64,000 nt of DNA. It comes from Streptomyces marispadix. Its GTDB lineage: Bacteria; Actinomycetota; Actinomycetes; Streptomycetales; Streptomycetaceae. The DNA lies in NCBI RefSeq assembly GCF_022524345.1, contig NZ_JAKWJU010000002.1:1054001-1118000 (forward strand), in the 5' to 3' direction. A program made the position numbers and the translations under genes. How positions within the stretch are numbered: position 1 is the first letter of the stretch; each line of letters starts with the position of its first letter. The notes below the pieces were generated by a model, which ran no database searches, was not told the origin of the DNA, and saw only the letters and a program-made list of their open reading frames with translations. Shown here piece by piece: positions 1-13,515 of this stretch.

Positions 1-117
1 CCGGCGTCCGACCGGGCGGCGTACGGCCCCTCGGCTCCCGGCGCATCGGAATCCGGCGCATCGGAATCCGGCGCGCCCTCCCCCGGCGACCGCCTCCCCG
101 GGGAGGTCGCCCCATGA
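1..117 (+). CDS. C-terminal tail of a truncated upstream gene
   Basis: An open frame of 38 codons runs from the window edge to a TGA at 115-117. That stop overlaps the ATG of the first permease as ATGA, the same coupling used throughout the operon. The residues are low complexity (Pro, Ala, Ser, Gly) and include two copies of a GASES-like unit from a direct repeat in the DNA. No domain is visible, so the product cannot be named; it is inferred to be an earlier gene of the same operon. Confidence 0.5.
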   Translation, partial: PASDRAAYGPSAPGASESGASESGAPSPGDRLPGEVAP

Positions 118-1076
118 GCGCCACCGCCACCGGGACCGGCGTCTCGCCTTCCGCGAGCACCGGCACCCCGCCGCCCCGTACCACGGCGGCCCGCAAGCGG
201 GCCCTCGGTCTCGACCGCGACGCCTGGTTCCTGCTGCTGCCCGCTCTGCTGCCGGTGCTGCTGCTGAGCGCGGGCCCGCTGTTGTACGGACTCTCGCTGG
301 CCTTCACCGACGCCCAGTCCGGCCGCAGGGAGGTCACCAGATTCACCGGCCTCGCCAACCTGTCCGATCTGCGGCTGGATTCGCTCTTCTGGGACTCCTT
401 CAGGATCGGCCTCGTATGGGCCGTGTCCGTGACGGCACTGCAACTGCTGCTCTCGCTCGGCCTCGCGCTGCTGCTCGACCAGAACCTCCGGTTCCGCTGG
501 CTGGCCCGCACGCTCGCGCTCGTGCCGTGGGCGATGCCCGAGGTCGTCGTCGGCGTGATGTGGCGGCTCGTCTACAACCAGGACGCGGGCATCCTCAACT
601 CCACGCTCCGCGACCTGCATCTGATCTCCGAGAACGTCGACTGGCTCGCCGGGATCTCGCTCGCCCTGCCCGCGGTGATCGTGGTCGGCGTGTGGGCGGG
701 CATGCCGCAGACCACGGTCGTACTGCTCGCGGGGCTCCAGAACGTACCGCTGGATCTGCACGAGGCCGCGGCGCTGGACGGCGCGGGCCTGTGGCAGCGC
801 TTCCGTTCGGTGACCTGGCCCGCGCTGAAGCCCGTGGTGCTGGCGATCACGGCGCTCGACTTCATCTGGAACTTCAACTCCTTCGGCCTGGTCTACGTGC
901 TCACCGGCGGAGGACCGGGCGGGGCGACGCGGCTGCCGATGCTCTTCGCATACGAAGAGGCGTTCCGCTACGGGCAGTTCGGCTACGCCGCCGCGATGGG
1001 GCTGGTGATGGTCGCGGTCGTAGCCGTGCTGCTGACGGTCTTTCTGCGCAACCGGCTGAGGGAGGACGACCAGTGA
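114..1076 (+). CDS. Sugar ABC transporter permease (MalF/UgpA type)
   Basis: This is a 320-residue integral membrane permease of the carbohydrate-uptake ABC family. A Pro/Thr-rich cytoplasmic N-terminus of about 35 residues is followed by about six membrane segments. The cytoplasmic EAA loop is clear around residue 220 (EAAALDGAGLWQRF, then WPAL) and is the contact site for the ATPase. A GGAGG ribosome site lies 8 nt before the ATG. It overlaps the next permease by 4 bp (GTGA). No ATPase gene is present in the operon, so a shared MsiK-type ATPase encoded elsewhere is the likely partner, as is usual in streptomycetes. Confidence 0.93.
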   Translation: MSATATGTGVSPSASTGTPPPRTTAARKRALGLDRDAWFLLLPALLPVLLLSAGPLLYGLSLAFTDAQSGRREVTRFTGLANLSDLRLDSLFWDSFRIGLVWAVSVTALQLLLSLGLALLLDQNLRFRWLARTLALVPWAMPEVVVGVMWRLVYNQDAGILNSTLRDLHLISENVDWLAGISLALPAVIVVGVWAGMPQTTVVLLAGLQNVPLDLHEAAALDGAGLWQRFRSVTWPALKPVVLAITALDFIWNFNSFGLVYVLTGGGPGGATRLPMLFAYEEAFRYGQFGYAAAMGLVMVAVVAVLLTVFLRNRLREDDQ

Positions 1077-2008
1077 CCCGCCCAGCGACCCGGCCGACTT
1101 CCCGGCCTGTGACCCCGTCAGGGACCCGGCCAGGGCCCCGGCCAGGGCCCCGATCAGGGCCCCGATCAGGGACCGCTCTGCGCTCGGGCGCGGCCCGCGC
1201 CGGCCAGTATCTGGCCCTGCTCTGCTATCTGGTCTTCCTCGCCTTCCCTCTCCTGTGGCTGCTGTCGACGGCCTTCAAGTCCCCTCAGGAACTGGGCTCG
1301 GTGGACGCGTCCTGGCTGCCCCGGCACCCGTCACTGGACAGCTTCACCGCCGCATTCGGGCAGCAGCCGCTGGCGCGTTCGGCGCTCAACAGCGTCATCG
1401 TGGCCTCGTGCGCGGCGGCGGTCTCGGTGGCGATCGCGGTGCCCGCCGCGTACGCGATGGCCAGATACCGCTCGGTGGTCGGCAAGGCGGCCACGGGCTG
1501 GATTCTGGTCAGCCAGATGTTCCCCTTCGTGCTGGTGATCATCCCGCTGTTCCTGGTGCTGAAGAGCTTCCACCTCATCGACTCCCTCACCGGGCTCGTC
1601 CTCGTGTACGTGGTGTGGAACCTGCCGTTCGCGCTGTGGATGCTCCAGGGCTATGTGCGCGCCGTGCCCGCCTCGCTGGAGGAGGCCGCCGCCATCGACG
1701 GCTGCGGACGGCTGCGGACCTTGCGCAGCGTCGTACTCCCCCTGCTCACGCCGGGGCTGGTGGCGACGGTGATGTTCTCCTTCGTCACCGCCTGGAACGA
1801 GTTCTTCTTCGCCCTGGTCCTGCTCAAGTCGCCGGAGAAGCAGACGATGTCCGTGATCCTCACCCACTTCATAGGCGCCGAGGGCGCCGCCGACCTGGGG
1901 CCGCTGGCCGCGGCGGCGCTGATGGCGACCCTGCCCAGCCTGCTGTTCTTCGCGCTGCTCCAGCGGAGGCTGGTCAGCGGCGTGATGAGCGGGGCGGTGA
2001 AGGGCTGA
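1073..2008 (+). CDS. Sugar ABC transporter permease (MalG/UgpE type)
   Basis: This 311-residue protein is the second membrane subunit of the importer. The GTG at 1073 overlaps the previous stop as GTGA, which fixes the start despite a longer open frame upstream. The first ~45 residues are a cytoplasmic Arg/Pro/Gly-rich tail encoded by five 12-bp tandem repeats. About six membrane segments follow, with an EAA loop (EEAAAIDGCGRLRTLRSVVLP) near residue 205. The stop shares its last base with the ATG of the binding protein (TGATG), so all three transporter genes are coupled. Confidence 0.93.
   Translation: MTRPATRPTSRPVTPSGTRPGPRPGPRSGPRSGTALRSGAARAGQYLALLCYLVFLAFPLLWLLSTAFKSPQELGSVDASWLPRHPSLDSFTAAFGQQPLARSALNSVIVASCAAAVSVAIAVPAAYAMARYRSVVGKAATGWILVSQMFPFVLVIIPLFLVLKSFHLIDSLTGLVLVYVVWNLPFALWMLQGYVRAVPASLEEAAAIDGCGRLRTLRSVVLPLLTPGLVATVMFSFVTAWNEFFFALVLLKSPEKQTMSVILTHFIGAEGAADLGPLAAAALMATLPSLLFFALLQRRLVSGVMSGAVKG
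1111..1170 (+). repeat. Five 12-bp tandem repeats in the second permease N-terminus
   Basis: Five consecutive 12-bp units resembling gccccgatcagg occupy the coding sequence just after the GTG start. They encode alternating Arg/Ser-Gly-Pro residues. The unit is a multiple of three, so copy-number change would not break the frame. Confidence 0.85.
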
Positions 2009-3321
2009 TGAGGCGCCGCGACTTCCTCACAGCGGCGGCGACGGCCGGAGCGGCCGGAGCCCCCGCCCTGCTCGGCGGCTGCGCGACCACCGGTGGCGGC
2101 GACTCCGGGCCGATGGACTTCCTCAGCCTGGCCTGGCAGAAGGAGTCCATCGCGGTCAACAAGGCGCTGGTGGCCGAGTGGAACAGGCGCCATCCGAAGG
2201 CACGGGTCCGCTATGTGCAGGGCGCCTGGGAGTCCGTGCACGACCAGTTGCTCACGTCCTTCGAGGGGGGTGAGGCGCCCGACATCATCCACGACGAGGC
2301 CAACGACCTCACCGACTTCGCCCACGGCGGCTATCTCGCCGACCTCCGCCCGCTGCTGCCCGAAGACCTCAAGCAGCAGATATCGCAGGCCAATTGGGAC
2401 ACCGCCACCATCGAGGGCGGCGTGTACGGAGTGCCGTTCCTGCACGACCCACGCGTACTGATAGCCGACCGCAGGCTGCTGGAGAAGTCCGGCGTACGGA
2501 TACCGACCGCCGAACGGCCCTGGAGCTGGGGCGAGTTCGAGGACGTCGCCAAGGAACTGACCCACGGCCGGGGACGCGACCGCAGATACGGCGTCGCCTG
2601 GTCGATGAAGGAACCCGTCAACCAGTCCGTCAATCTGGCGATGAGCACCGGCGGCGCCGTCTTCCACCGCGAGCACGGAAAGAACGTCGTGCGCTTCGAC
2701 GACGCCGACTCCCGCGTCTTCGAACTGATCCACCGCCAGGTCAACGAGGACCGTACGGCGGCCAGAAGCACCCTCGGCATGGCCGGTTCCGACACGCTTC
2801 CGGGCTTCTTCGCGGGCCGGTACGCGATCGTGCCGCTCAACTTCTCCTTCCGGCAGCAGGTCCAGCAGCAGGCACCGGACGACTTCGAATGGGTGACGCT
2901 GCCGATGCCCGCCGGGCGCGGCACGAAGGGCGGGGGACAACTCCAGGGCGTGAGCCCGCAGACCCTGTCCGTCTCCCAGGACACCTCGCGGAAGGAGGCA
3001 GCCATGGCGTTCATCGCGTTCCTGACCCGCCCCGGCCACATGGCTCGTCTCGCGAAGGGCGACTGGCTCGTTCCCACCGGACGTGAGGCACTGCGCGATC
3101 CGGCCCTCGACACCGGGAAGTACGGCTGGAGCACCGGGCTTCGGATCGCCTCCGACCTGCGGGCGTCGCCCGTACTGGGCGTACGCGGCTACCCGGAGTG
3201 GAAGGACAAGGTCGCCACGCCCGCCCTCCAGGAGTACTACGCGGGCGGCATCGGCCTGCGCGCCCTGCGGGACAAGCTCGTCGTCGACGGCAACCGCATC
3301 CTCGCCAGGTATCAGCGCTGA
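2008..3321 (+). CDS. Extracellular substrate-binding lipoprotein, ABC sugar type
   Basis: This 437-residue family 1 extracellular solute-binding protein captures the substrate for the two permeases. The N-terminus combines a twin-arginine motif (RRRDFL, residues 2-7) with a lipobox ending LLGGC at Cys25, so it is predicted to be a Tat-exported lipoprotein. The mature part has the usual features of the fold (residues near 90 read DIIHDEANDL; HDPRVL near 150; NLAMSTGG near 210). The start overlaps the permease stop by one base. The ligand cannot be read from sequence; the downstream ribokinase and ARH genes suggest a riboside or related glycoside. Confidence 0.92.
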   Translation: MRRRDFLTAAATAGAAGAPALLGGCATTGGGDSGPMDFLSLAWQKESIAVNKALVAEWNRRHPKARVRYVQGAWESVHDQLLTSFEGGEAPDIIHDEANDLTDFAHGGYLADLRPLLPEDLKQQISQANWDTATIEGGVYGVPFLHDPRVLIADRRLLEKSGVRIPTAERPWSWGEFEDVAKELTHGRGRDRRYGVAWSMKEPVNQSVNLAMSTGGAVFHREHGKNVVRFDDADSRVFELIHRQVNEDRTAARSTLGMAGSDTLPGFFAGRYAIVPLNFSFRQQVQQQAPDDFEWVTLPMPAGRGTKGGGQLQGVSPQTLSVSQDTSRKEAAMAFIAFLTRPGHMARLAKGDWLVPTGREALRDPALDTGKYGWSTGLRIASDLRASPVLGVRGYPEWKDKVATPALQEYYAGGIGLRALRDKLVVDGNRILARYQR

Positions 3322-3543
3322 CCGGCGACGTACGGCAGCGAGAGCGAGGCCCGGGCGCACGGGCGCACGGGCACGGAGCGAAGAACCGAGAACGGCAGCA
3401 GAGAGCGAACGCGCAGAAAGACGGCAAACAACAGCAAACGACGGCAAACAGCAGCAGCTACGACAGCGGCAACAGGCAGCAGCAACAGCTACGGATCAAC
3501 GGAACAGACGCAGGAACAACGGCACAGAACGGCAATCCGCACC
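3322..3543 (+). other. T-poor, A/C-rich spacer between transporter and hydrolase genes
   Basis: This is the only sizeable gap inside the operon (222 bp). From about 3360 to 3540 it has very few T residues on the coding strand and is rich in CAG/CAA/ACGGCA words, with lower GC than its surroundings. I see no inverted repeat resembling a terminator, no convincing promoter and no conserved ORF. It would give an unstructured purine/C-rich RNA stretch. Confidence 0.6.
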
Positions 3544-4839
3544 ATGAGCGCAGCCCCCGCCTCCCCGGCACCCTCCGCCCCCTTTCCCGCACGGGAGCAT
3601 CCGCCCGCCCCCGTACCGGCGCCGTCCGCGGAAGGGACGTCCCCCGCGCGGAAGGCGGCGCCGAACGTCCCCGCGCCCGCGGATCTGCGTGAGAGGGCAC
3701 GCGGCGGAATGCTGGGGCTCGCGGTCGGCGACGCGCTCGGCGCGCCCGCCGAGAACATGAAACCGTCGCAGATCAGGGAGCGTTGGGGCCGCATCGAGGG
3801 CTTCGTGGAGGAGGAGCCGTCGGGCACCGACGACACCGAGTACGCCGTCTTCTCCGGCCTGATGCTCGCCGAGCACGGCTCCGAATTGACCCTCGCGCAC
3901 GTCGAGGAGGCGTGGCACCGCTGGATCGCCAACCTCGACGAGGGCCCTTTCCGGGGTGCCGGGTTCAGCGAGCGCGGCACCCTGGAGAACCTCCGGCGCG
4001 GCCTGGCCGCCCCCATCTCGGCACAGCACCGGCACGCGTGGAGCGACGGACTGGCCATGCGTGCCGCGCCGTTCGGGATCTTCGCCGCCGGGCGCCCGGC
4101 CGAGGCCGCGCGCCTCGTCGCTCTCGACGGCACCGTCAGCCACGACGGCGAGGGCATCTACGGAGGCCAGGCCGTCGCCGCGGGTGTGGCCGCCGCGATG
4201 GTGGGGCGCGGTACGGACGCCGTGATCGCCGCCGCGCTCTCCGTCGTACCGGAGGACTCCTGGACGGCACGCTCGCTGCGCCGCGCCGTCGCCACAGCGC
4301 AACGCGCCCGCCACGACCGCGACGCCACGCGGCTGGGGCGGGAGCGTGCCGTGCGTTCGGCCGTGGTGATCGGCGGCTATCCGTGGATGGATCTGGCGCC
4401 GGAGGCGGTGGGGCTGGCGTTCGGCGCCTTCGCCGTCGCCCAGGGCGACTTCAGGGACTCCGTGCTGACCGCCGTCAACATGGGACGCGACGCCGATACG
4501 ACGGCCGCCGTCGCGGGCGCGCTCGCCGGGGCTCTGGGCGGTGCGGGTGCCGTGCCCGAGGAGTGGGCGGCGGAGATCGGGCCCGCACGAGGGAGTTGTC
4601 TGCCGTCGATGGCGGGCTATCACGTCCTGGACATCGCGGAGTTGCTCACGCCGCTCCCCGAGCACTCGGACACTCCCCCGGGCTCGGCCCCGGGTTCTTC
4701 ACGGCGGGGGACGTCCGGCCGCGGCGGCGCCAAGAGCCGTGCCAAGAGCCGTGACGACGCCGAGAACCGTGACGGTGCCGAGAACCGTGACGGTGCCGAG
4801 AGCCGAGACGGTGCGACGAAGAAGAGGACGCGGCGATGA
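3544..4839 (+). CDS. ADP-ribosylglycohydrolase family protein (copy A)
   Basis: This 431-residue protein belongs to the ARH/DraG family of di-metal hydrolases that cleave N- or O-ribosyl bonds. After ~50 Pro/Ala-rich residues the fold starts with GLAVGDALGAP (Asp63). The metal motif TDDTE lies at residues 95-99, HDGEGIYGG near 200, and the C-terminal metal motif GRDADTTAA (Asp316, Asp318). All expected ligands are present, so catalysis is likely. The tail carries tandem repeats rich in Asp, Glu and Arg. No good ribosome site precedes the ATG. It overlaps copy B by 4 bp. Confidence 0.9.
   Translation: MSAAPASPAPSAPFPAREHPPAPVPAPSAEGTSPARKAAPNVPAPADLRERARGGMLGLAVGDALGAPAENMKPSQIRERWGRIEGFVEEEPSGTDDTEYAVFSGLMLAEHGSELTLAHVEEAWHRWIANLDEGPFRGAGFSERGTLENLRRGLAAPISAQHRHAWSDGLAMRAAPFGIFAAGRPAEAARLVALDGTVSHDGEGIYGGQAVAAGVAAAMVGRGTDAVIAAALSVVPEDSWTARSLRRAVATAQRARHDRDATRLGRERAVRSAVVIGGYPWMDLAPEAVGLAFGAFAVAQGDFRDSVLTAVNMGRDADTTAAVAGALAGALGGAGAVPEEWAAEIGPARGSCLPSMAGYHVLDIAELLTPLPEHSDTPPGSAPGSSRRGTSGRGGAKSRAKSRDDAENRDGAENRDGAESRDGATKKRTRR
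4741..4812 (+). repeat. Four 18-bp tandem repeats at the end of copy A
   Basis: Four 18-bp units of the form gccgagaaccgtgacggt (two identical, two diverged) encode repeated AENRDG-like hexapeptides. A separate GC-rich 18-bp repeat follows inside the start of copy B around 4970-5030, encoding GTGTRA-type residues. The gene junction is thus flanked by low-complexity tails. Confidence 0.85.
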
Positions 4840-6275
4840 GCGGTACGGGGTCAGGCGGAGGGGCAGTCCGCCTGGGGGGCGCCGCACAAGCCGGTACGGA
4901 CGGCAGTACGGGCGTCCACGGCGGCGCCGGTGCCCACGGCCTCGCGGGAGACGGCAACGGGGCCGGGACAAGGACCGGGACCGGGACACGGGCCGGGACC
5001 GGGACACGGGCCGGGACCGGGACCGGAGACGGCCCAAGTGACGCCGCCGGCGGCCGAGTCGGCGCCCGCCGCGCGGCCGCTGCCGCCCCCGCCGGCAGTG
5101 AACCGCCCCCGGACCCGCGCCGTATCGAGGGCCTGCTGCTGGGCATCGCCGCGGGCGACGCCGCCGGGTGGCCCGCGGCACGGCACCGCGCTTCCCGTAT
5201 GCCGGAGTGGACGCGCAGGCTCACCCGTGAGCTGGACACCTTCGCCGAGCACAACGCCACCACCACCCTCCCGGTGCCCATCGCGCTCAACCAGCCGCCC
5301 GAGCCGCTGCGGCTGGGCCCCTCCGACGACGCCGAATGGGCCGCGTTCACCGCGGAGTCGGTGCTCACCGCCGCGGGTGCGCTGCTGAGCGACCTGGGCC
5401 GGGACCGCAGAATCCGCGCCGCCGTCGACCTCGCCTGGAACGAACTCGCCGGTGAGGTCGCCGCCGCCGCGGGCCGCGCTCCCGAGGTGGAGTCGGCGGT
5501 GCTGCCGCTGCGTGCCCGCATCTCCGTACGGGCCGGGCTGGGGAACCTCGCGACGGGCCTGCGGCCCCCGGCGACAGGCCACGACAATCCGCACTTCTTC
5601 GACGACGCCGCCTGCGTACGCGCGGCCGTGCTGGCGACCGTCCACCCCGGAAGTCCGTCCCGTGCCGCCGACCTCGCCGAGTGCGACGCCCGCTACACAC
5701 AGGACGGCGACGGCGTGCACGGCGCCCGTGCCATGGCGGCGGCCGTCGCCGCGGCGCTCGGCGGCTCGGACGCGGAGACATGTGTCGCGGCGGCGATGGT
5801 CCAACTGCCTTCCGGTACGGAGATCCGCCGCAACGCGCGGCACGCCGTACGCCTCGCCCGCGAGGCCGCCGCCGACCGGCCCGGCGGCGCGGGCAACGCC
5901 TTCGCCCTCGTGCCGGTGCTGGAGCACGAGATCGTCGACCACATCTACAGCTACGGCATCGCCGCCGCCGAGACCGTTCCCGTAGCGCTGGCGCTCTGCC
6001 TCGCCGGGGGCGGCTCGATCGCCGAGGCGGTACCGGCGGCGGCCTGTCTCTCCCGCGTCGCGGACTCCGCTCCTGCCCTCGCGGGCGCGTTGACGGGTGC
6101 GATCGGCGGCGGTGCGGCCATCCCCGGGAGCTGGCGGAAGGCATGCCGCACGCTCTCCGGCTGCGCCCTGCCGCGCCTCGCCGGAAGAGACCTCGTCGAG
6201 CTGGCCGAACTGCTCGTACAGACCGAACTGACCACGCCCGAGGGCACTTTCGCGGAAGGAACGACCTGCGTATGA
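4836..6275 (+). CDS. ADP-ribosylglycohydrolase family protein (copy B), degenerate metal site
   Basis: This is a 479-residue ARH-family protein with a ~95-residue Gly/Thr/Arg low-complexity N-terminus. The fold is recognisable: GLLLGIAAGDAAGWP near 105, SDDAEW near 165 in place of TDDT, and QDGDGVHGARAMAAAVAAAL near 290. The C-terminal motif that usually reads GRDxDT is replaced by SRVADSAPALAGAL, losing one metal Asp. It may bind metal weakly, have changed chemistry or act as a non-catalytic partner of its neighbours. ATGA overlaps couple it on both sides. Confidence 0.85.
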   Translation: MSGTGSGGGAVRLGGAAQAGTDGSTGVHGGAGAHGLAGDGNGAGTRTGTGTRAGTGTRAGTGTGDGPSDAAGGRVGARRAAAAAPAGSEPPPDPRRIEGLLLGIAAGDAAGWPAARHRASRMPEWTRRLTRELDTFAEHNATTTLPVPIALNQPPEPLRLGPSDDAEWAAFTAESVLTAAGALLSDLGRDRRIRAAVDLAWNELAGEVAAAAGRAPEVESAVLPLRARISVRAGLGNLATGLRPPATGHDNPHFFDDAACVRAAVLATVHPGSPSRAADLAECDARYTQDGDGVHGARAMAAAVAAALGGSDAETCVAAAMVQLPSGTEIRRNARHAVRLAREAAADRPGGAGNAFALVPVLEHEIVDHIYSYGIAAAETVPVALALCLAGGGSIAEAVPAAACLSRVADSAPALAGALTGAIGGGAAIPGSWRKACRTLSGCALPRLAGRDLVELAELLVQTELTTPEGTFAEGTTCV

Positions 6276-7684
6276 GGCCCACACCGATCTCCGCACCGAC
6301 GACCGCATCCGCCTCCACCGGCCCGTCCGGCGAGGCGCCCTCGGATACGTGTGCGGGTGAGTCCGCGGACAAGTCCGCGAGCCCCGACGCGAGTACGGGC
6401 ACGCCGACGCTGGAGGACCGCGTCACCGGCTGCCTCGTCGGGGCCGCGGTCGGCGACGCCCTCGGCGGGCCCGTCGAGGGCTGGAGCCCCGAGCAGATCG
6501 TGGAGCGCCACGGCGGACGGGTGGAGGGCATCGTCGGCCCGTTCTACGAGGACTGGCGCAACGCAAGGCCGATCGCCCCGTACCACAAGGGCGACGGCCA
6601 CGTCACCGACGACACCCTGATGACCCACGCTCTGGTGCGGGTCTATGAGAAGGTCCGCGACCACCTCGGCGCGTACGACGTCGCCGAGCATCTGGTGCCG
6701 GATCTGATGGGCGATCCCCGCTGGATTCCCGAACTCGAGGCGGAGGCACTGCCGTTGCAGCGGCTCTTCCTCGCGGAGAAGTGGATCGTCGCAAGGCTCC
6801 ACTACGGCCACGCCGACCCGCGCGAGGCGGGCACGGGGAACATCGTCAACTGCGGTGCGGCGATGTACATGGCGCCCGTGGGGCTGGTCAACGCCGGTAA
6901 TCCCGCGGGTGCTTACGCCGAGGCGCTGGATGTGGCGGGCGCTCACCAGTCGTCCTACGGGCGTGAGGCCGCCGGGGTCTTCGCCGCGGCGGTCGCCTCG
7001 GCGTGCGGACCGGGCGCGACACCGCAGTCCGTCGTGGAGGACGTGCTGGCGCTGGCGAAGGACGGCACCCGGGAGGCGATCGCGGCGGTGTGCGAAGTGG
7101 CCGCCGGATACGGCGCCTTCGAGGAGGCGCTGAAGCCGCTGCGCGACGCGGTCGCCCCGTACGACACGGTCGGCCCGGAGTACCGCAACCCGTCGCTGGG
7201 CGCCCGCCGCCCCTCGCGGCTGCACTCCATCGAGGAACTGCCCGTCGCCCTGGGCATGTTGCTCGTCGGCGGCGGCGACTTCCGCCGTACGGTGCTGGGT
7301 TCGGTCAACTACGGGCGCGACTGCGACTCCATCGCCACGATGAGCGGCGCCGTCGTCGGCGCCATGCGGGGCGCTGACGCCGTACCGGAGGAGTGGGGCA
7401 CGGAGGTCGCACGCGCCAGCAGACTCGATCTGCACGCCCCGGCGGCTTCGCTCGCGAAGGTCGCACGTGAGGTCTTCGAACGCGACCTGGGACGCCGCAG
7501 GGCCCACGAGGCCGCGTTCCGCGCCATCGCACCGGACGACGACGGGGAGGCGAACCCGGGCCGCAGCGGCGGCAGTTCGGCACAGGCGCCACAGGAGACC
7601 GACGGGGCCCGTGCCACCGGCACCGGTGACGCCCGTACGAGCGGCGCACCCGGCGCGCCCCGCACCGCCGAGGACGGTTCATGA
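6272..7684 (+). CDS. ADP-ribosylglycohydrolase family protein (copy C)
   Basis: This 470-residue ARH-family hydrolase has an intact metal site. A Ser/Thr/Ala-rich leader of ~45 residues precedes GCLVGAAVGDALGGPVEGW. TDDTLM lies near residue 112, HQSSYGREAAGVFAAAVASA near 225, and the C-terminal motif NYGRDCDSIATMSGA near 350. An insertion with WRNARPIAPYHKGDGH before TDDT sets it apart from copy A and suggests a different substrate pocket. The C-terminus is a disordered Gly/Ala/Thr tail. The start overlaps copy B (ATGA), and the stop overlaps the next start (ATGATG). Confidence 0.9.
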   Translation: MRPTPISAPTTASASTGPSGEAPSDTCAGESADKSASPDASTGTPTLEDRVTGCLVGAAVGDALGGPVEGWSPEQIVERHGGRVEGIVGPFYEDWRNARPIAPYHKGDGHVTDDTLMTHALVRVYEKVRDHLGAYDVAEHLVPDLMGDPRWIPELEAEALPLQRLFLAEKWIVARLHYGHADPREAGTGNIVNCGAAMYMAPVGLVNAGNPAGAYAEALDVAGAHQSSYGREAAGVFAAAVASACGPGATPQSVVEDVLALAKDGTREAIAAVCEVAAGYGAFEEALKPLRDAVAPYDTVGPEYRNPSLGARRPSRLHSIEELPVALGMLLVGGGDFRRTVLGSVNYGRDCDSIATMSGAVVGAMRGADAVPEEWGTEVARASRLDLHAPAASLAKVAREVFERDLGRRRAHEAAFRAIAPDDDGEANPGRSGGSSAQAPQETDGARATGTGDARTSGAPGAPRTAEDGS

Positions 7685-8002
7685 TGCGGCTGACCTGGGT
7701 GCAGCCCGAGGATCTGCTCGGGCACGAGCTACGGCAGGCAGCAGAGGACGGCCGTGACGTCTCCGGGGTCGAACGGGTGTGGCGCGATGCGGGAGGCGCG
7801 CCCGCGCCCGAGCGGGCGGGCGCGTCCGAGGCGCCCGCCGATGCGCGGCTGCGTGCTACGGCGCTGCGTCTCCTGGATGAACTCGCCCTGCTCCCCTCCC
7901 CGTTGGCCGACGACGAGCCCACGGATCTCGCCGCTGTGAAAGCGGCGTGCCCGGACTGGCCGGAGCCGCCACGGCCACGCGACGGGTCCGCCCCACGGCC
8001 GC
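7681..8002 (+). pseudogene. N-terminal segment of ARH copy D, out of frame with its catalytic domain
   Basis: An ATG overlapping the stop of copy C begins a sequence reading MMRLTWVQPEDLLGHELRQA and continuing to LAAVKAACPDWPEPP near 7966. This is the N-terminal extension I expect in this ARH subfamily, but the catalytic domain that should follow lies one base away in another frame. The frame continues only as a shadow to 8460. Codon third-position bias switches frames between about 7958 and 8003. Either one base is extra in this sequence (error or mutation) or translation shifts by +1 here. Confidence 0.65.
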
Positions 8003-9202
8003 ATGGGCGGCGACGAGGGCCTGCGGGAGCGTCTGGAGGCCGCGTGGCTCGGCCGTGCCGCGGGCTGTCTCCTCGGCAAGCCCGTCGAGAAGATGCCGCT
8101 CGACGGCATCCGCGAGATCGCCCGCGCCACGGGCAACTGGCCGCTCGACGGCTGGTTCACCCAAGTCGGCCTGCCCGACGCCACGTTGAGGCGGCTGCCG
8201 TGGAACCGCCGCAGCGCGGCCACCTCTCTCGCCGAGAACATCGACGGCATGCCCGAGGACGACGACCTCAACTACCCACTGCTGGGCCTGCTGTTGCTCC
8301 AGCGTCACGGGAACGCCTTCACCACCGCGGACGTCGCCTCGCTCTGGCTGGACGAGCTGCCCGCGGGCCGCACCTTCACCGCCGAACGCATCGCCTACCG
8401 CAACCTCCTCGACGGCCTGGAGCCACCGGAGACCGCCCGCCGTCACAACCCGTTCCGTGAGTGGATCGGCGCGCAGATCCGAGCCGACGTCTTCGGCTGG
8501 ACCCACCCCGGCGATCCGGGTACGGCTGCCGAACTCGCCTGGCGCGACGCCGTGTTGAGCCACACCGGCAACGGCGTCTACGGGGAGATGTTCGCCGCCG
8601 CCGTCGTCGCCGAGGCGGCCTCCGTCGACTCCCCCGACGTCGTGTCCTGTCTGCGTACCGGGCTGCGGGTCGTGCCGCCGCGTTCCCGTCTCGCCCGTGC
8701 CGTCGGCTTCGGCATCGAGGCGGCACTCGCCGAACCGGCGGGCGACGCCGCCGGGTTCGAGTCCGTGGTCGACCGTCTCCACCGCGAGTACGGGCACCAC
8801 CACTGGGTGCATGTGCTGCCCAACGCGGCGCTGCTCGCCGCCGCGCTCACCCATGCGCGAGGCGACTTCACCGGCTCCGTCTGCCGTGCGGTGTCCGGGG
8901 GTTGGGACACCGACTCGGTCGGCGCCACCGCCGGTTCCGTCGCGGGACTCCTCGCGGGCTCGCCCGGCGTACTGCCCTCCCGATGGACCGCACCGCTGAA
9001 GAACCGGCTGGCCACCAGCGTCCGCGGCTTCGACGGCACCGGCTTCGACGCCCTTGCCGCTCTCACCCGTGACCTGGCCGTGCCGCATCCGTCCGTTCCA
9101 CACGAACCTGCGTACGCGCATGGGGGGTTCGAACAGCCGCACCCGTACGGCCCGTCAGCCGGTGCCACCGGCCGAGACCGACAGGAGACCTCCGCACCGT
9201 GA
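8003..9202 (+). CDS. ADP-ribosylglycohydrolase family protein (copy D), catalytic part
   Basis: This 399-residue ARH-family domain starts within WLGRAAGCLLGKPVEKMP, carries the metal motif EDDDLNY near residue 90, SHTGNGVYGEMFAAAV near 180, and a C-terminal GGWDTDSVGATAGS motif near 300, so it looks catalytically complete. The ATG at 8003 has no ribosome site nearby, and the upstream frame from 7681 supplies the missing N-terminus, so the true product is probably one protein of about 500 residues interrupted by a frameshift. The open frame continues upstream of 8003 to 7940 without a start. It overlaps the ribokinase start by 4 bp (GTGA). Confidence 0.82.
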   Translation: MGGDEGLRERLEAAWLGRAAGCLLGKPVEKMPLDGIREIARATGNWPLDGWFTQVGLPDATLRRLPWNRRSAATSLAENIDGMPEDDDLNYPLLGLLLLQRHGNAFTTADVASLWLDELPAGRTFTAERIAYRNLLDGLEPPETARRHNPFREWIGAQIRADVFGWTHPGDPGTAAELAWRDAVLSHTGNGVYGEMFAAAVVAEAASVDSPDVVSCLRTGLRVVPPRSRLARAVGFGIEAALAEPAGDAAGFESVVDRLHREYGHHHWVHVLPNAALLAAALTHARGDFTGSVCRAVSGGWDTDSVGATAGSVAGLLAGSPGVLPSRWTAPLKNRLATSVRGFDGTGFDALAALTRDLAVPHPSVPHEPAYAHGGFEQPHPYGPSAGATGRDRQETSAP

Positions 9203-10146
9203 CCGACACGACGCCAAGTTCCCTGCCACGACCGGCGATCGCCGTGCTGGGCAGCACCAACATGGACCTCGTCGCCTACGTCGAGACCGCACCCCGCCGG
9301 GGCGAGACCGTCACCGGCCGCGCCTTCCGTACCGTCCCCGGCGGCAAGGGCGCCAACCAGGCGGTCGCCGCCGCCCGTTCGGGCGGTTCCGTCTCGATGA
9401 TCGGAGCCGTCGGCGAGGACGACTTCGGCGTGCGGCTGCGCGCCTCGCTGGCCGACGCGGGCGTGGACACGACCGGGCTGCGCACCGTCGAGGGTGAGAG
9501 CGGCACCGCCCACATCGTCGTCGACGACGACGGCGGCAACGCGATCGTCGTCGTGCCCGGCGCCAACGGCACCGTCGACGGCCTCGCCGACGGCGACGAA
9601 CAGCGCATCGCCGCCGCCGACGCCCTCCTCCTCCAACTGGAGATCCCGCTCCCCGGTGTGATCGCCGCGGCCCGCACCGCCTGGGAACACGGCGTGAGCG
9701 TCGTCCTCACCCCCGCGCCCGCCCGTCCGCTGCCGTCCGAACTCCTCGCCGTCACCGGGCTGTTGGTGCCCAACGAACACGAGGCCGCCGTGCTCACCGG
9801 CAAATCCGACCCACGTGACGCCGCCGCCTCGCTGCTGGCCCACGTACCCGAGGTGGTCGTGACGCTCGGCGAGAAGGGCTCCCTCTACGCCGTACGGGAC
9901 GCGGAACCGCTGTGGATTCCCGCACCCCGGGTGAAGGCCGAGGACACGACCGCCGCCGGTGACACCTTCGTCGGCGCGCTGGCCGTCGCCCGCGGCGAAG
10001 GCCGTGCCATGCCCGACGCGCTGACCTGGGCGTCCGCGGCGTCCGCCCTGTCCGTACAGCGGCCGGGCGCGTCCGCGTCCATGCCGTACCGCACCGAGAC
10101 CGACGCCTTCGCCGCCACGCTCAACGGAAGCCGGACGCCCTCATGA
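9199..10146 (+). CDS. rbsK: Ribokinase (PfkB family)
   Basis: This 315-residue PfkB carbohydrate kinase phosphorylates ribose to ribose 5-phosphate. Ribokinase hallmarks are LGSTNMDLVAYVE at the N-terminus, PGGKGANQAVAAARSG near 45, PAPARPLPSELL near 170, NEHEA near 190 and the catalytic DTTAAGDTF near 255 with its anion-hole glycine. The match to E. coli RbsK covers the whole length. GTG overlaps the previous stop, and ATGA overlaps the next gene. In this operon it would capture the ribose freed by the ARH hydrolases and feed it to the pentose phosphate pathway. Confidence 0.9.
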   Translation: MTDTTPSSLPRPAIAVLGSTNMDLVAYVETAPRRGETVTGRAFRTVPGGKGANQAVAAARSGGSVSMIGAVGEDDFGVRLRASLADAGVDTTGLRTVEGESGTAHIVVDDDGGNAIVVVPGANGTVDGLADGDEQRIAAADALLLQLEIPLPGVIAAARTAWEHGVSVVLTPAPARPLPSELLAVTGLLVPNEHEAAVLTGKSDPRDAAASLLAHVPEVVVTLGEKGSLYAVRDAEPLWIPAPRVKAEDTTAAGDTFVGALAVARGEGRAMPDALTWASAASALSVQRPGASASMPYRTETDAFAATLNGSRTPS

Positions 10147-11375
10147 ACCAAGCGCCTCGCCCGCCGCATGCGGACTCCGCCCGCCCGCGGCCCGGCCCGC
10201 TCGACGGGCTCCGCGTGCTCGACCTCGCGACGCTCTTCGCGGGCCCGCTCGCCGCCACCATGCTCGGCGACTTCGGCGCGGACGTCATCAAGGTCGAGCA
10301 TCCGCGCCGTCCCGACCCGTCCCGTGGCCACGGCCCCGCCAAGGACGGCGTCGGCCTGTGGTGGAAGCTGCTGGGCCGCAACAAGCGCAACGTCACCCTC
10401 GACCTGTCGACGCCCGGCGGCCATGACGTGCTGCTGCGCCTGGCCGCCCGCTCGGACGTCGTCATCGAGAACTTCCGCCCCGGCACCCTGGAGAAGTGGG
10501 ACCTGGGCTGGGACCGGCTCTCGGCCGCCAACCCCCGGCTGGTGCTCGCGAGGGTCACCGGCTTCGGGCAGTTCGGCCCGTACGCGCGGCGCCCCGGCTT
10601 CGGCACCCTCGCCGAGGCCATGACCGGATTCGCCGCGATCACCGGCGAACCGGACGGCCCGCCGACGCTGCCGCCGTTCGGTCTCGCCGACTCCATCGCC
10701 GCACTGGCCACGTCGTACGCGGTCATGGCGGCGCTGCGCGGCAGGGAGTCGACCGGCCGAGGGCAGGTCGTCGACATGTCCATCATCGAGCCGATGCTCA
10801 TCGCGCTCGGCCCGCAGCCCCTCTGGTACGACCAACTCGGCTATGTACAGCCCCGTATGGGCAACCGCTCCGCCAACAACGCGCCCCGGAACACCTATCG
10901 CACTGCGGACGGCGCCTGGCTGGCCGTCTCGACGTCCGCGCAGTCGGTGGCGGAGCGCGTGCTGAGGCTCGTCGGGCGCCCGGAGTTCATCGACGAGCCG
11001 TGGTTCGCGTCGGGCGCGGGACGCGCGGCGCACGCCGACGAGCTGGACGAGGCGGTCGGCGGCTGGATCGCACGGCACGGCCGCGACGAGGTCGTCGCCG
11101 CGTTCGAGCAGGCCGAGGCGGCCGTGGCGACGGTCAACGACATCCGGGGCGTGATGGAGGACGAGCAGTTCCGTGCGCTGGGCTCCGTCACCGAGGTCGA
11201 GGACGAGGAACTGGGCACCGTACGCATGCAGAACGTCCTCTTCCGGCTCTCGGAGACGCCCGGCGCGATCAAGTGGGCGGGCCGGGCGCACGGCCGCGAC
11301 ACGGACGCCGTTCTCGCCGAACTCGGCCTGGACGAACGGGAGATCGCCACGCTGCGGGAGGGCGGCGCACTGTGA
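10143..11375 (+). CDS. CaiB/BaiF family (family III) CoA-transferase
   Basis: This 410-residue family III CoA-transferase moves CoA between carboxylic acids. It shows LDGLRVLDLATLFAGPLAATMLGDFGADV-type N-terminal sequence, VIKVEHP near 50, NKRNVTLDLSTPGG near 85 and VIENFRPGTLEKWDLG near 115. The catalytic Asp is predicted in GLADSIAAL near residue 185. It is coupled to its neighbours by ATGA and GTGA overlaps. With the following CoA-ester lyase it forms a plausible two-step module: activation of an acid as its CoA thioester, then C-C cleavage. The acid substrate is not known. Confidence 0.9.
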   Translation: MNQAPRPPHADSARPRPGPLDGLRVLDLATLFAGPLAATMLGDFGADVIKVEHPRRPDPSRGHGPAKDGVGLWWKLLGRNKRNVTLDLSTPGGHDVLLRLAARSDVVIENFRPGTLEKWDLGWDRLSAANPRLVLARVTGFGQFGPYARRPGFGTLAEAMTGFAAITGEPDGPPTLPPFGLADSIAALATSYAVMAALRGRESTGRGQVVDMSIIEPMLIALGPQPLWYDQLGYVQPRMGNRSANNAPRNTYRTADGAWLAVSTSAQSVAERVLRLVGRPEFIDEPWFASGAGRAAHADELDEAVGGWIARHGRDEVVAAFEQAEAAVATVNDIRGVMEDEQFRALGSVTEVEDEELGTVRMQNVLFRLSETPGAIKWAGRAHGRDTDAVLAELGLDEREIATLREGGAL

Positions 11376-12397
11376 ACGGCGGCAGGCTGAGCGACACCGC
11401 CGACGGAGCGCACGGGAGTCAGAGCCGAGGCCCGCACGAGGTGCCGGGCGGAGGCCCGCACGAGGTCGCGCCCGAAGGCGCCCAGGGTCCGGAGTCGTTT
11501 CCGCTGACCTGGCTCTACGCTCCGGGCGACCGTCCTGAAGTGGTACGCAAGGCCCTCACGTCCGGTGCCGATGTGGTGATCGTCGACTTGGAGGACGCGG
11601 TCGCCTCCGAGCGCAAGGCGTACGCACTGCACGCCACGGCCGGCCTTCTCGCACGGCCGCGTCCCGGGCCGCCCGTGCATGTGCGGATCAACGCGCTGGA
11701 CGGGCCGCTCGCCGCCGACGAGGTGCGTGCCCTCGCCGGGCTGCCGGGGCTGGCGGGCCTGCGGCTGCCGAAGGTCGACGGTCCGGAGGACGTGCTGCGA
11801 GTCGCACGGTGGGCGAGGGAGGCCCGTGGGGAGGGGGCGGGAGCGCAGGCGGATGCGCTCACGGGCGCGGGCGCGGGATCGCCGGGCGTCGGCTCCGGCG
11901 TGGGCGTACCCCCGCTGTACGCGCTGCTCGAATCCGCCCTCGGCATCGAGAACGCCTTCGCGATCGCCACCGCGCATCCGTCCGTACGCGGCATCGCGCT
12001 CGGTGAGGCCGATCTGCGCGCGGTGCTCGGCGTGACCGGCGAGGCGGGGCTGGCCTGGCCGCGCAGCCGCACGGTGGTCGCGGCACGCGCCGCCGGTCTC
12101 GCTCCCCCACCGCAGTCCGTCTATCCGGACGTCGCCGACATCGCGGGCCTGGCCCGATCGTGCGCCGAGGGACGGGCGCTGGGCTTCTGCGGACGTACGG
12201 CTGTCCATCCGTCCCAGTTGGCGATCATCGAGCGGGCGTATCTGCCCACACGCCAGGAGACCGAGGCCGCGGAGGAGGTCGTGAAGGCGGCGGCGAGCAG
12301 AGCGGGCGCGCTGGCGCTCCCTGACGGGAGGTTCGTCGACGCGGCGGTCGTCGCTGGCGCCCGGCGCACGCTGGCACTGGCGAGGCGTCGCGGCTGA
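11372..12397 (+). CDS. CoA-ester lyase (HpcH/HpaI aldolase, CitE-like)
   Basis: This 341-residue TIM-barrel lyase is related to citrate lyase beta, malyl-CoA and citramalyl-CoA lyases. Landmarks are LYAPGDRPEVVRKAL near 45, VDLEDAV near 68, VHVRINALDG near 102 (substrate Arg), ALLESALGIENAFA near 190, GEADLRAVLG near 215 (metal acid) and GRTAVHPSQLAII near 275. The GTG start overlaps the CoA-transferase stop, excluding the long shadow frame upstream. It is the last gene of the operon and would cleave the CoA ester made by the transferase, giving an acyl-CoA and an oxoacid. Confidence 0.88.
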   Translation: MNGGRLSDTADGAHGSQSRGPHEVPGGGPHEVAPEGAQGPESFPLTWLYAPGDRPEVVRKALTSGADVVIVDLEDAVASERKAYALHATAGLLARPRPGPPVHVRINALDGPLAADEVRALAGLPGLAGLRLPKVDGPEDVLRVARWAREARGEGAGAQADALTGAGAGSPGVGSGVGVPPLYALLESALGIENAFAIATAHPSVRGIALGEADLRAVLGVTGEAGLAWPRSRTVVAARAAGLAPPPQSVYPDVADIAGLARSCAEGRALGFCGRTAVHPSQLAIIERAYLPTRQETEAAEEVVKAAASRAGALALPDGRFVDAAVVAGARRTLALARRRG

Positions 12398-12507
12398 CCG
12401 CGAGGAGACAGGGCGATAGGAACGCCGGAGTCCCTACGTCAACTCGGGCTCTCGGCCGCCAGATTGAACCGCCGGTCGTCAGATCGAACTCTCGGACGTC
12501 TCAGACG
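12398..12507. other. Convergent gap between CoA lyase and lgt
   Basis: The 110-bp gap contains three degenerate direct repeats of the form cagattgaac / cagatcgaac / cagcttgaac spaced about 25 bp, plus the short palindromic word gacgtc twice. No strong terminator hairpin is evident. Confidence 0.5.
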
Positions 12508-13515
12508 TCAGCTTGAACTCTCCGGCGCGGAGACGGCCGACGGCGCTCCGCCGTCGCTCCCGTCGCCGCCCTTGCTCCCGGCTTCCTCGGGGGAAGCAGG
12601 AGACGCGGCGGAAGCACCGGCCTTGTGCTTCCTGCCGCCCAAGCGACCGGAGCCGCCGGAACCACCGGCAGACGAACCGTCACCGGCGGCCTCCGGCTCG
12701 ACGATCTTCTCCCTGCCCGGCCGGGTCTTCGCGGAGATCACGATGCCGACGACGGCACCGACGAAGACGAGGATCGACGTCCAGTCGTTGAGCCGCAGCC
12801 CGGCGATGTGGTGGGCGTCGTCGACGCGCAGATACTCGACCCAGAAGCGGCCGACGGTGTACGACGCGACGTAGAGGCCCAGCGCACGGCCGTGCCCCAG
12901 CTTGAAGCGGCGGTCGGCCCAGATCACCAGGAACCCCACGCCCACGCACCACAGGGACTCGTAGAGGAACGTCGGGTGGTAGGTCGCCAGGCTGGGGGTG
13001 TCGACGGGCCGGTGCTGGGCGTCGATCTCGACCGCCCAGGGGAGATCCGTGGCCCGCCCGTACAGCTCCTGGTTGAACCAGTTGCCCCAGCGGCCGATCG
13101 CCTGCGCGAACGCCACCCCGGGGGCCACCGCGTCCGCGTACGCGGGAAGCGGGATGCCGCGCCTGCGGCACCCGATCCAGGCACCCAGGGCGCCGAGGGC
13201 GACCGCGCCCCAGATGCCGAGCCCGCCGTCCCAGATCTTGAAGGCGTCGACCCAGTTGCGGCCCTCGCCGAAGTAGAGCTGGTAGTCGGTGACGACGTGG
13301 TAGAGACGCCCGCCCACCAGGCCGAACGGCACGGCCCACACGGCGATGTCGGCGACGGTGCCGACCCGGCCGCCCCGCTCGACCCAGCGGCGGCCGCCGA
13401 GCCATACGGCGACGAAGACGCCGATGATGATGCAGAAGGCGTAGCCGCGCAGCGGCACCGGACCGAGATGGATCTCGCCGGCCGAGGGGCTGGGAATGAA
13501 TGCAAGGATCTCCAT
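12508..13515 (-). CDS. lgt: Prolipoprotein diacylglyceryl transferase
   Basis: This 335-residue polytopic membrane enzyme transfers diacylglyceryl from phosphatidylglycerol to the lipobox Cys of prolipoproteins, the first step of lipoprotein maturation. It has about seven membrane segments, the signature GRWGNWFNQELYG near 145 (catalytic region with conserved Arg and Asn), an HPTFLYESLW segment near 195 and VEYLRVDD near 240. The C-terminal ~60 residues form a charged Gly/Ser tail typical of actinobacterial Lgt. A -10-like box TAGCGT lies 10 nt upstream of the ATG and there is no clear ribosome site. Confidence 0.96.
   Translation of the reverse strand: MEILAFIPSPSAGEIHLGPVPLRGYAFCIIIGVFVAVWLGGRRWVERGGRVGTVADIAVWAVPFGLVGGRLYHVVTDYQLYFGEGRNWVDAFKIWDGGLGIWGAVALGALGAWIGCRRRGIPLPAYADAVAPGVAFAQAIGRWGNWFNQELYGRATDLPWAVEIDAQHRPVDTPSLATYHPTFLYESLWCVGVGFLVIWADRRFKLGHGRALGLYVASYTVGRFWVEYLRVDDAHHIAGLRLNDWTSILVFVGAVVGIVISAKTRPGREKIVEPEAAGDGSSAGGSGGSGRLGGRKHKAGASAASPASPEEAGSKGGDGSDGGAPSAVSAPESSS

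Follow-up and report, generated by a model that had tools for sequence, protein, structure and literature searches.

Why would a streptomycete keep four proteins of the ADP-ribosylglycohydrolase (ARH) family in one operon with a sugar importer, a ribokinase and two enzymes of coenzyme A (CoA) ester chemistry? This arrangement lies at the start of a 64,000-nucleotide stretch of Streptomyces marispadix DNA (contig NZ_JAKWJU010000002.1, positions 1,054,001 to 1,118,000, forward strand), referred to here as the window. Between positions 114 and 12397, ten genes on the + strand encode two CUT1-type sugar ATP-binding cassette (ABC) permeases (P1 and P2), a lipoprotein solute-binding protein (SBP), four ARH-family proteins (A1 to A4), a ribokinase (RK), a family III CoA-transferase (CoAT) and a CitE-like C–C lyase. 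Gene coordinates and Pfam matches (PF00528 twice, PF01547, PF03747 four times, PF00294, PF02515 and PF03328) bear out this content, which an initial annotation had read from the sequence alone. The same annotation described nearly universal overlaps of 1–4 bp, and these are present at nine of ten junctions when the LacI-family gene upstream is counted; the sole non-overlapping junction is a 222-bp spacer between SBP and A1 (3322..3543, +). Its start of the operon at position 114 had to be revised: a LacI-family regulator gene (G000:C2:1052921-1054117, 398 amino acids), whose 3' end occupies 1..117 (+), precedes P1 and overlaps it by 4 bp, placing the operon start 1.1 kb upstream of the window.

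With moderate confidence, the operon is interpreted as a LacI-controlled route for the catabolism of an imported ribosyl conjugate through ARH proteins, a ribokinase and a CoA branch. The CUT1-type importer, possibly borrowing a shared MsiK-like ATPase, would take up the conjugate. A1, A3 and A4 would hydrolyze ribosyl bonds at a binuclear metal site, with A2 acting as a putative non-catalytic or altered partner, and RK would phosphorylate the released ribose. The remaining acid, probably of the malate or citramalate type, would be converted to a CoA ester by CoAT, and the CitE-like lyase would split this ester into a 2-oxoacid and an acyl-CoA. Gene identities, operon layout, conservation, operator, motifs and the recurrence with importers and kinases come directly from sequence; the riboside nature of the imported compound, its cleavage by the ARH proteins, the kind of acid, LacI control and use of a shared ATPase are inferred.

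A neighborhood comparison shows the genes staying together across several actinomycete families, with related sets in other phyla. A pattern scan with A2 confirmed at least 459 relatives, and the best 80 loci, a selection that leans to close relatives (75 are named Streptomyces), were compared. Member order is kept in 79 of these 80 loci, the remaining one (L079) having a duplication. Among the 73 loci with a downstream view, RK is present in 62 and CoAT and CitE in 69 each; among the 71 with an upstream view, P1, P2 and SBP are adjacent in 12 and the LacI gene in 13. Beyond close relatives, a class-level sample of 197 genomes contains A3 in 34 (E 1e-60), 14 of them from the window's genus and 20 from others. 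Eighteen loci of the latter group were viewed: 15 keep the order LacI-P1-P2-SBP-A1-A2-A3-A4 (in L166 the contig stops within A4), one (L169) shows a rearrangement, and contig ends truncate the other two. RK is present in 15 of the 18 and the CoAT–CitE pair in 16. The same-order operon occurs in Streptomyces-type loci, in Jiangellaceae (f21) and in a family (f19) tentatively assigned to Streptosporangiaceae, since A3 homologs with comparable identity carry names such as Nonomuraea and Streptosporangium; the set is rearranged in family f38. A1, A3 and A4 also occur in order in a record named Nonomuraea. A phylum-level sample returned A3 in eight of 296 genomes (E 1e-50), all from the window's genus.

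SBP orthologs occur in 28 of the 197 class-level genomes (E 1e-60), and all 28 are among the 34 that encode A3 (Fisher p 1.7e-28, not corrected for kinship).

Related sets also occur on plasmids. A search of PLSDB matched A3 in 22 records, A4 in seven and A1 in one, and a shared chromosome-sized Nonomuraea sequence was left out of the locus views, which cover 13 A3-type and six A4-type loci. LacI, two permeases and SBP stand directly before the A3-type ARH in 12 of the 13, the exception being Halalkalicoccus. All 12 importer-linked loci contain a UgpC-type ATPase, and 11 (not L246) contain a second ARH of a 700-residue type. CoAT lies beside the ARH genes in seven and CitE in six of the 13 A3-type loci; a ribokinase is found in line in L244, divergent in L255 and as a fragment in L249. 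Several genes of the importer/ARH set in L253 are annotated in pieces. At the A4-type loci, part of an importer adjoins the ARH gene in five of six, and a PfkB/ribokinase gene is present in four of six. The individual arrangements vary: LacI-ARH-SBP-P-P-ribokinase-UgpC in Mycolicibacterium, LacI-P-P-SBP-x-ARH-ribokinase-ARH in Deinococcus, LacI-ARH-SBP in Enterobacter, a Bmp importer followed by ARH in Rhizobium ACO-34A, and PfkB-DUF4434-ARH-ARH in Subdoligranulum, where a weak permease match stands alone about 5 kb away. A plasmid of the archaeon Halostella (L259, 406-11749) combines a Bmp-type binder, two IU nucleoside hydrolases, an ARH protein and a PfkB kinase.

The combination of an ARH gene with an importer of sugar or nucleoside type and a kinase (ribokinase or PfkB) recurs in Mycolicibacterium, Deinococcus, Agrobacterium and Halostella, which fits riboside catabolism. 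Related sets in such distant taxa also favor catabolic ribosidases over enzymes that repair ADP-ribosylated protein. The two halves of the proposed pathway draw on different evidence: the ribose half on recurrence in unrelated taxa beside nucleoside- or sugar-type importers, and the acid half on actinomycetes and rhizobia only.

All four ARH proteins score 120–201 bits against PF03747 (gathering score 26.2). The acidic motifs of ARH proteins supply metal-site residues. A1 (3544..4839, +; PF03747 E 4.7e-59) carries TDDTE and GRDADTT, each kept in 78 of 79 relatives, and A3 (6272..7684, +) carries TDDT and GRD[CSA]DS in 82 of 82. A4 has a variant form: its ARH domain (8003..9202, +, frame 2) contains PEDDDLN and GWDTDS, with EDDD[LI]N in 83 and WDTDS in 86 of 93 relatives. 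Acidic motifs at both metal sites are thus present in A1 and A3 in the usual form and in A4 in the variant one. In A2 (4836..6275, +), (S/G)DDAEW is kept and the second motif is shortened to ADS, each in 72 of 74 relatives.

Phylogenetic analysis places the four copies in different parts of the family. A1 and A2 are sister groups (99/96), and A3 groups with rhizobial ARHa (100/98) and, on a long branch, with E. coli YegU (97/86). A4 falls in a DDD-type clade (100/100) with ARH proteins of Mycolicibacterium, Deinococcus, Subdoligranulum, Halostella and Enterobacter and with rhizobial ARHb. Positions on long branches (YegU, L251, the A2 of L169 and a fifth ARH) are uncertain. Recent tandem duplication of all four genes was rejected because A3 and A4 come from distinct, old subfamilies, leaving A1 and A2 as the sole sister pair.

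Several further ARH proteins were noted. The fifth ARH of the window genome (L001, G000:C2:2649444-2650352) is encoded outside the operon and sits on a long branch at the base of the A3 side. The 700-residue rhizobial proteins (ARHb, L243-L258) possess a C-terminal extension, and one of three such ARHs scanned (two rhizobial, one from Deinococcus) gave a weak Laminin G match below the cut-off. Streptomyces also encode a second A4-like ARH (L118-L124, L130; 45–52% identity) outside any importer operon: no P1, P2 or SBP match was found around it in eight of eight loci, or around the A4 relatives in L127 and L129, and a glycerate kinase gene adjoins it in L119. This paralog was uninformative and was dropped as a guide to function.

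RK (9199..10146, +) scores 306.5 bits against the ribokinase equivalog TIGR02152 (cut-off 299.65) and falls below the narrower NF008353 (274.8 versus 341). CoAT (10143..11375, +) matches PF02515 with 406.3 bits (E 1.7e-121) and reaches no NCBIfam equivalog cut-off. Family III CoA-transferases use a catalytic aspartate, and the corresponding GLAD motif is present in 87 of 87 relatives. The CitE-like lyase (11372..12397, +) scores 115.4 against PF03328 (gathering score 25) and misses the cut-offs of its nearest NCBIfam models, RipC (128.4 versus 375) and citE (130.1 versus 443.4). Family III transferases paired with CitE-type lyases act on 2-hydroxy-dicarboxylates such as malate and citramalate; the CoA branch is chemically plausible.

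Three known systems resemble parts of this operon. Nucleoside catabolism uses IU nucleoside hydrolases, or PsuG/PsuK, with ribokinase, and shares import, cleavage of a ribosyl bond and a kinase; in Halostella the ARH gene even adjoins the two IU nucleoside hydrolase genes. It employs another hydrolase family, however, and a Pfam scan found none of these hydrolases among the window operon genes. The itaconate/citramalate pathway consists of a CoA-transferase, a hydratase and the citramalyl-CoA lyase RipC and likewise places a CoA-transferase before a CitE-type lyase. The window operon differs in being without a hydratase and in missing the RipC and mesaconate CoA-transferase cut-offs, and itaconate degradation was rejected on these grounds. 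The nearest system in the literature found is E. coli yegTUV, which comprises a transporter, an ARH protein and a PfkB-type kinase, with the regulator YegW/GgaR; their functions are described as unknown (PMC10819704). Both systems combine a transporter, an ARH protein and a sugar kinase with a regulator alongside, and YegU groups with the A3 subfamily. According to the same source, yegTUV differs in having one ARH, an MFS-type transporter, a GntR-type regulator and no CoA branch.

Control by LacI is inferred from an operator, GTAAACGTTTCC, that sits 28 bp before the start of the LacI gene in the window genome. A palindromic LacI-type pattern, G.AA[AG]CG.TT.C, which was fixed after the sites had been seen, lies no more than 160 bp upstream of the LacI gene in all 29 relatives examined. 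It precedes none of nine other genes examined (P1, P2, SBP, A1, A2, A3, RK, CoAT and CitE, at 28–94 loci each, with A4 left out), and sequences shuffled to keep base composition only gave a mean of at most 0.1 locus per gene. Within the window, positions 1-13000 are without the operator, the spacer before A1 included.

The importer consists of P1 (114..1076, +), which is 70% identical to the permease of an other-family locus (L125), P2 (1073..2008, +) and SBP (2008..3321, +); two PF00528 permeases and a PF01547 binder make this a CUT1 importer. A profile of SBP matched 24 sequences in the PDB, mostly sugar ABC binders, some as fusion constructs. The Pfam scan identified no ATPase among the operon genes. 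Elsewhere, the window genome encodes an ATPase with 63% identity to the UgpC of the Mycolicibacterium locus, and UgpC adjoins the importer in the rhizobial and Mycolicibacterium loci, suggesting that the ATPase may be shared.

A number of observations weigh against the proposed catabolism of a ribosyl conjugate. Of the 71 loci viewed upstream, 59 have no adjacent importer, and in the class-level sample five of 13 other Streptomyces with A3 have no SBP ortholog at E 1e-60. SBP belongs to PF01547, a type common among oligosaccharide binders, rather than to the nucleoside-type Bmp family. Among the 73 loci with a downstream view, RK is missing from 11 and CoAT and CitE from four; RK is also absent from L169 and L165, the latter being without CoAT and CitE as well. 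G012 (L128) has only A4 and RK within the 18 kb viewed, four loci (L049, L063, L072 and L106) contain A1–A4 only, beside lgt, and most of the 12 rhizobial-type loci are without a ribokinase. A2 has lost one metal-site acid and does not possess acidic motifs at both sites. In the window genome, a frameshift in A4 separates the N-terminal extension, of about 105 codons (7681..8002, +, frame 1), from the ARH domain. Of 93 relatives with both parts in their locus (L039 and L166, whose contigs end inside A4, were left out), 92 carry them in a single open frame and one, L073, is likewise shifted; the frameshift may be a sequencing error or a real mutation. Lastly, the acid branch is deduced from family chemistry, and the Ensifer CitE is just 30% identical to that of the window.

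The outline of the initial annotation thus stands in part. Riboside catabolism gains from the conserved gene set, from the confinement of SBP to genomes with A3 and from the recurrence with importers and kinases, and loses from the rarely adjacent importer, the PF01547 binder, the degenerate A2 and the shifted A4. Of the three ARH pockets described as intact, those of A1, A3 and A4 do carry acidic motifs at both metal sites, with A4 compromised by its frameshift in the window genome. Degradation of an acid through a CoA ester is chemically plausible and recurs in rhizobia, with the nature of the acid a surmise. The import, ribose and acid branches are separable, given that the importer is adjacent in 12 of 71 loci and four loci hold A1–A4 only.

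CoAT and CitE might be an independent dicarboxylate module that stands beside riboside genes by chance, an unlikely explanation that nevertheless survives better than the others considered. CoAT relatives (E 1e-120) occur in 48 of the 197 class-level genomes, 14 of them without A3, and CoAT–CitE pairs are found outside the ARH operon, where their neighbor is a DctM permease (L223-L225), MmgE/PrpD (L218 and L220) or a cyclase gene (L219). Two of the DctM-linked pairs come from the A3 genomes G221 and G231, whose ARH loci as viewed are without the pair; these DctM-linked pairs suggest a separate dicarboxylate pathway. The low identity of the Ensifer CitE points the same way. Against chance proximity, all 34 A3 genomes have a CoAT relative at the threshold or better (in G221 and G231 this is the DctM-linked copy on another contig), CoAT lies inside the operon in 16 of the 18 non-Streptomyces loci viewed, and CoAT–CitE recurs beside ARH genes in Alphaproteobacteria.

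A more doubtful alternative holds that, in Streptomyces, the ARH, CoAT and CitE proteins process an intracellular ribosylated metabolite, in salvage or repair, and that the importer is an accessory of some lineages. The many loci without a nearby importer are in keeping with it, as is the operator: in all 60 loci that have no linked SBP, it is absent from the 340 bp preceding A1. The operator is likewise absent before P1 in eight of eight loci with an unlinked importer, which suggests that LacI control has been lost in most such lineages; L097 keeps the LacI gene and operator with no linked importer. Opposed to this alternative is the linkage of the importer in 16 of the 18 other-family loci, the other two being cut by contig ends. 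Moreover, eight of 13 sampled other Streptomyces with A3 encode SBP with P1 and P2 at a separate locus (L234-L241), and these eight unlinked SBPs group in a single clade, sister to the 14 linked Streptomyces-type SBPs; the unlinked copies may serve the same substrate or another. G268 has no SBP at the threshold, and its linked relative is 32% identical. Four of five unlinked importers viewed are followed by a glycosyltransferase-like gene (read by eye; Pfam-checked in L234), and in L238 the following gene was read by eye as an rRNA methyltransferase.

Still less probable is that the ARH proteins reverse ADP-ribosylation of protein or nucleic acid, or clear ADP-ribosyl metabolites, and are merely co-transcribed with sugar genes. 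Family membership in PF03747 and, for A1, A3 and A4, the acidic motifs at both metal sites are shared with DraG, ARH1 and ARH3, and an A1 profile matched 16 PDB sequences, 15 of which are named ADP-ribosyl, DraG or ARH3 (the remaining one is the hypothetical MJ1187). The four loci that hold only A1–A4 beside lgt also agree with this explanation. However, the window proteins differ from DraG, ARH1 and ARH3 in their catabolic operon setting, in the degenerate A2 and in the DDD that the A4 type carries instead of TDDT. They also score far below the equivalog cut-offs of DraG (TIGR02662; best 76.6 versus 337.05) and Tri1 (NF041672; best 58.5 versus 490), which led to rejection of a plain DraG role. 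GNGAAMR, the ADP-ribose-binding loop of DraG, aligns with sdGlamr in A1. No transferase gene is present in the operon, the rest of the genome not having been searched, and the recurrence of ARHs with importers and kinases in distant taxa argues further against this role.

Least probable is an importer for some unrelated oligosaccharide, with the ARH genes as hitchhikers: the SBP profile does match mostly oligosaccharide binders, and a protein with an FGE-like domain has been added in ten of the 18 other-family loci, but ARH genes are repeatedly linked to CUT1-type and Bmp-type importers and ribokinase in unrelated taxa.

The added protein, of about 659 amino acids, has its FGE-like domain at the C-terminus and is encoded between RK and CoAT in Jiangellaceae and family f17 (L125, 5380-7359). 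None of 16 genomes from the window's genus gave a match to it, and its N-terminal half has no Pfam match above the cut-off and no PDB match outside the FGE part. Additional genes between CoAT and CitE in L164 and L170 were read by eye as unrelated insertions. On one side the window operon is bordered by gltB and a VIT-like gene (identified by eye; located in relatives), and on the other by lgt (also by eye).

Catabolism of an imported ribosyl conjugate remains the favored reading of the operon. The protein families involved are known, and their joint use as a nutrient pathway would be new; among titles and abstract openings returned by searches of open-licence PMC papers, none describes an ARH protein as a catabolic ribosidase or such a pathway, although this counts only weakly as evidence of absence. 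The common annotation of ARH proteins is ADP-ribosylglycohydrolase, and they are read as signaling or repair enzymes. A broader interpretation, offered tentatively as possible rather than probable, is that much of the non-eukaryotic ARH superfamily consists of nutritional ribosidases. Importer-linked proteins of two old subfamilies, the TDDT type (A3, rhizobial ARHa and perhaps YegU) and the DDD type (A4, rhizobial ARHb and the Deinococcus, Mycolicibacterium, Subdoligranulum and Halostella proteins), would supply PfkB kinases with ribose; those of actinomycetes and rhizobia would also pass a hydroxy-dicarboxylate aglycone to a CoA-transferase and a CitE-type lyase. Protein de-ADP-ribosylation would then be one specialized use.

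Should the importer-linked ARH proteins prove to be ribosidases, many annotations in bacteria and some in archaea would be misleading, and a class of metal-dependent glycosidases would await description. The unexplained E. coli yegTUV operon would gain a testable hypothesis, and the small Mycolicibacterium and Deinococcus versions allow a clean experiment. The CoA-transferase/lyase branch would, in turn, point to a natural ribosyl–acid conjugate not yet recognized as a nutrient.

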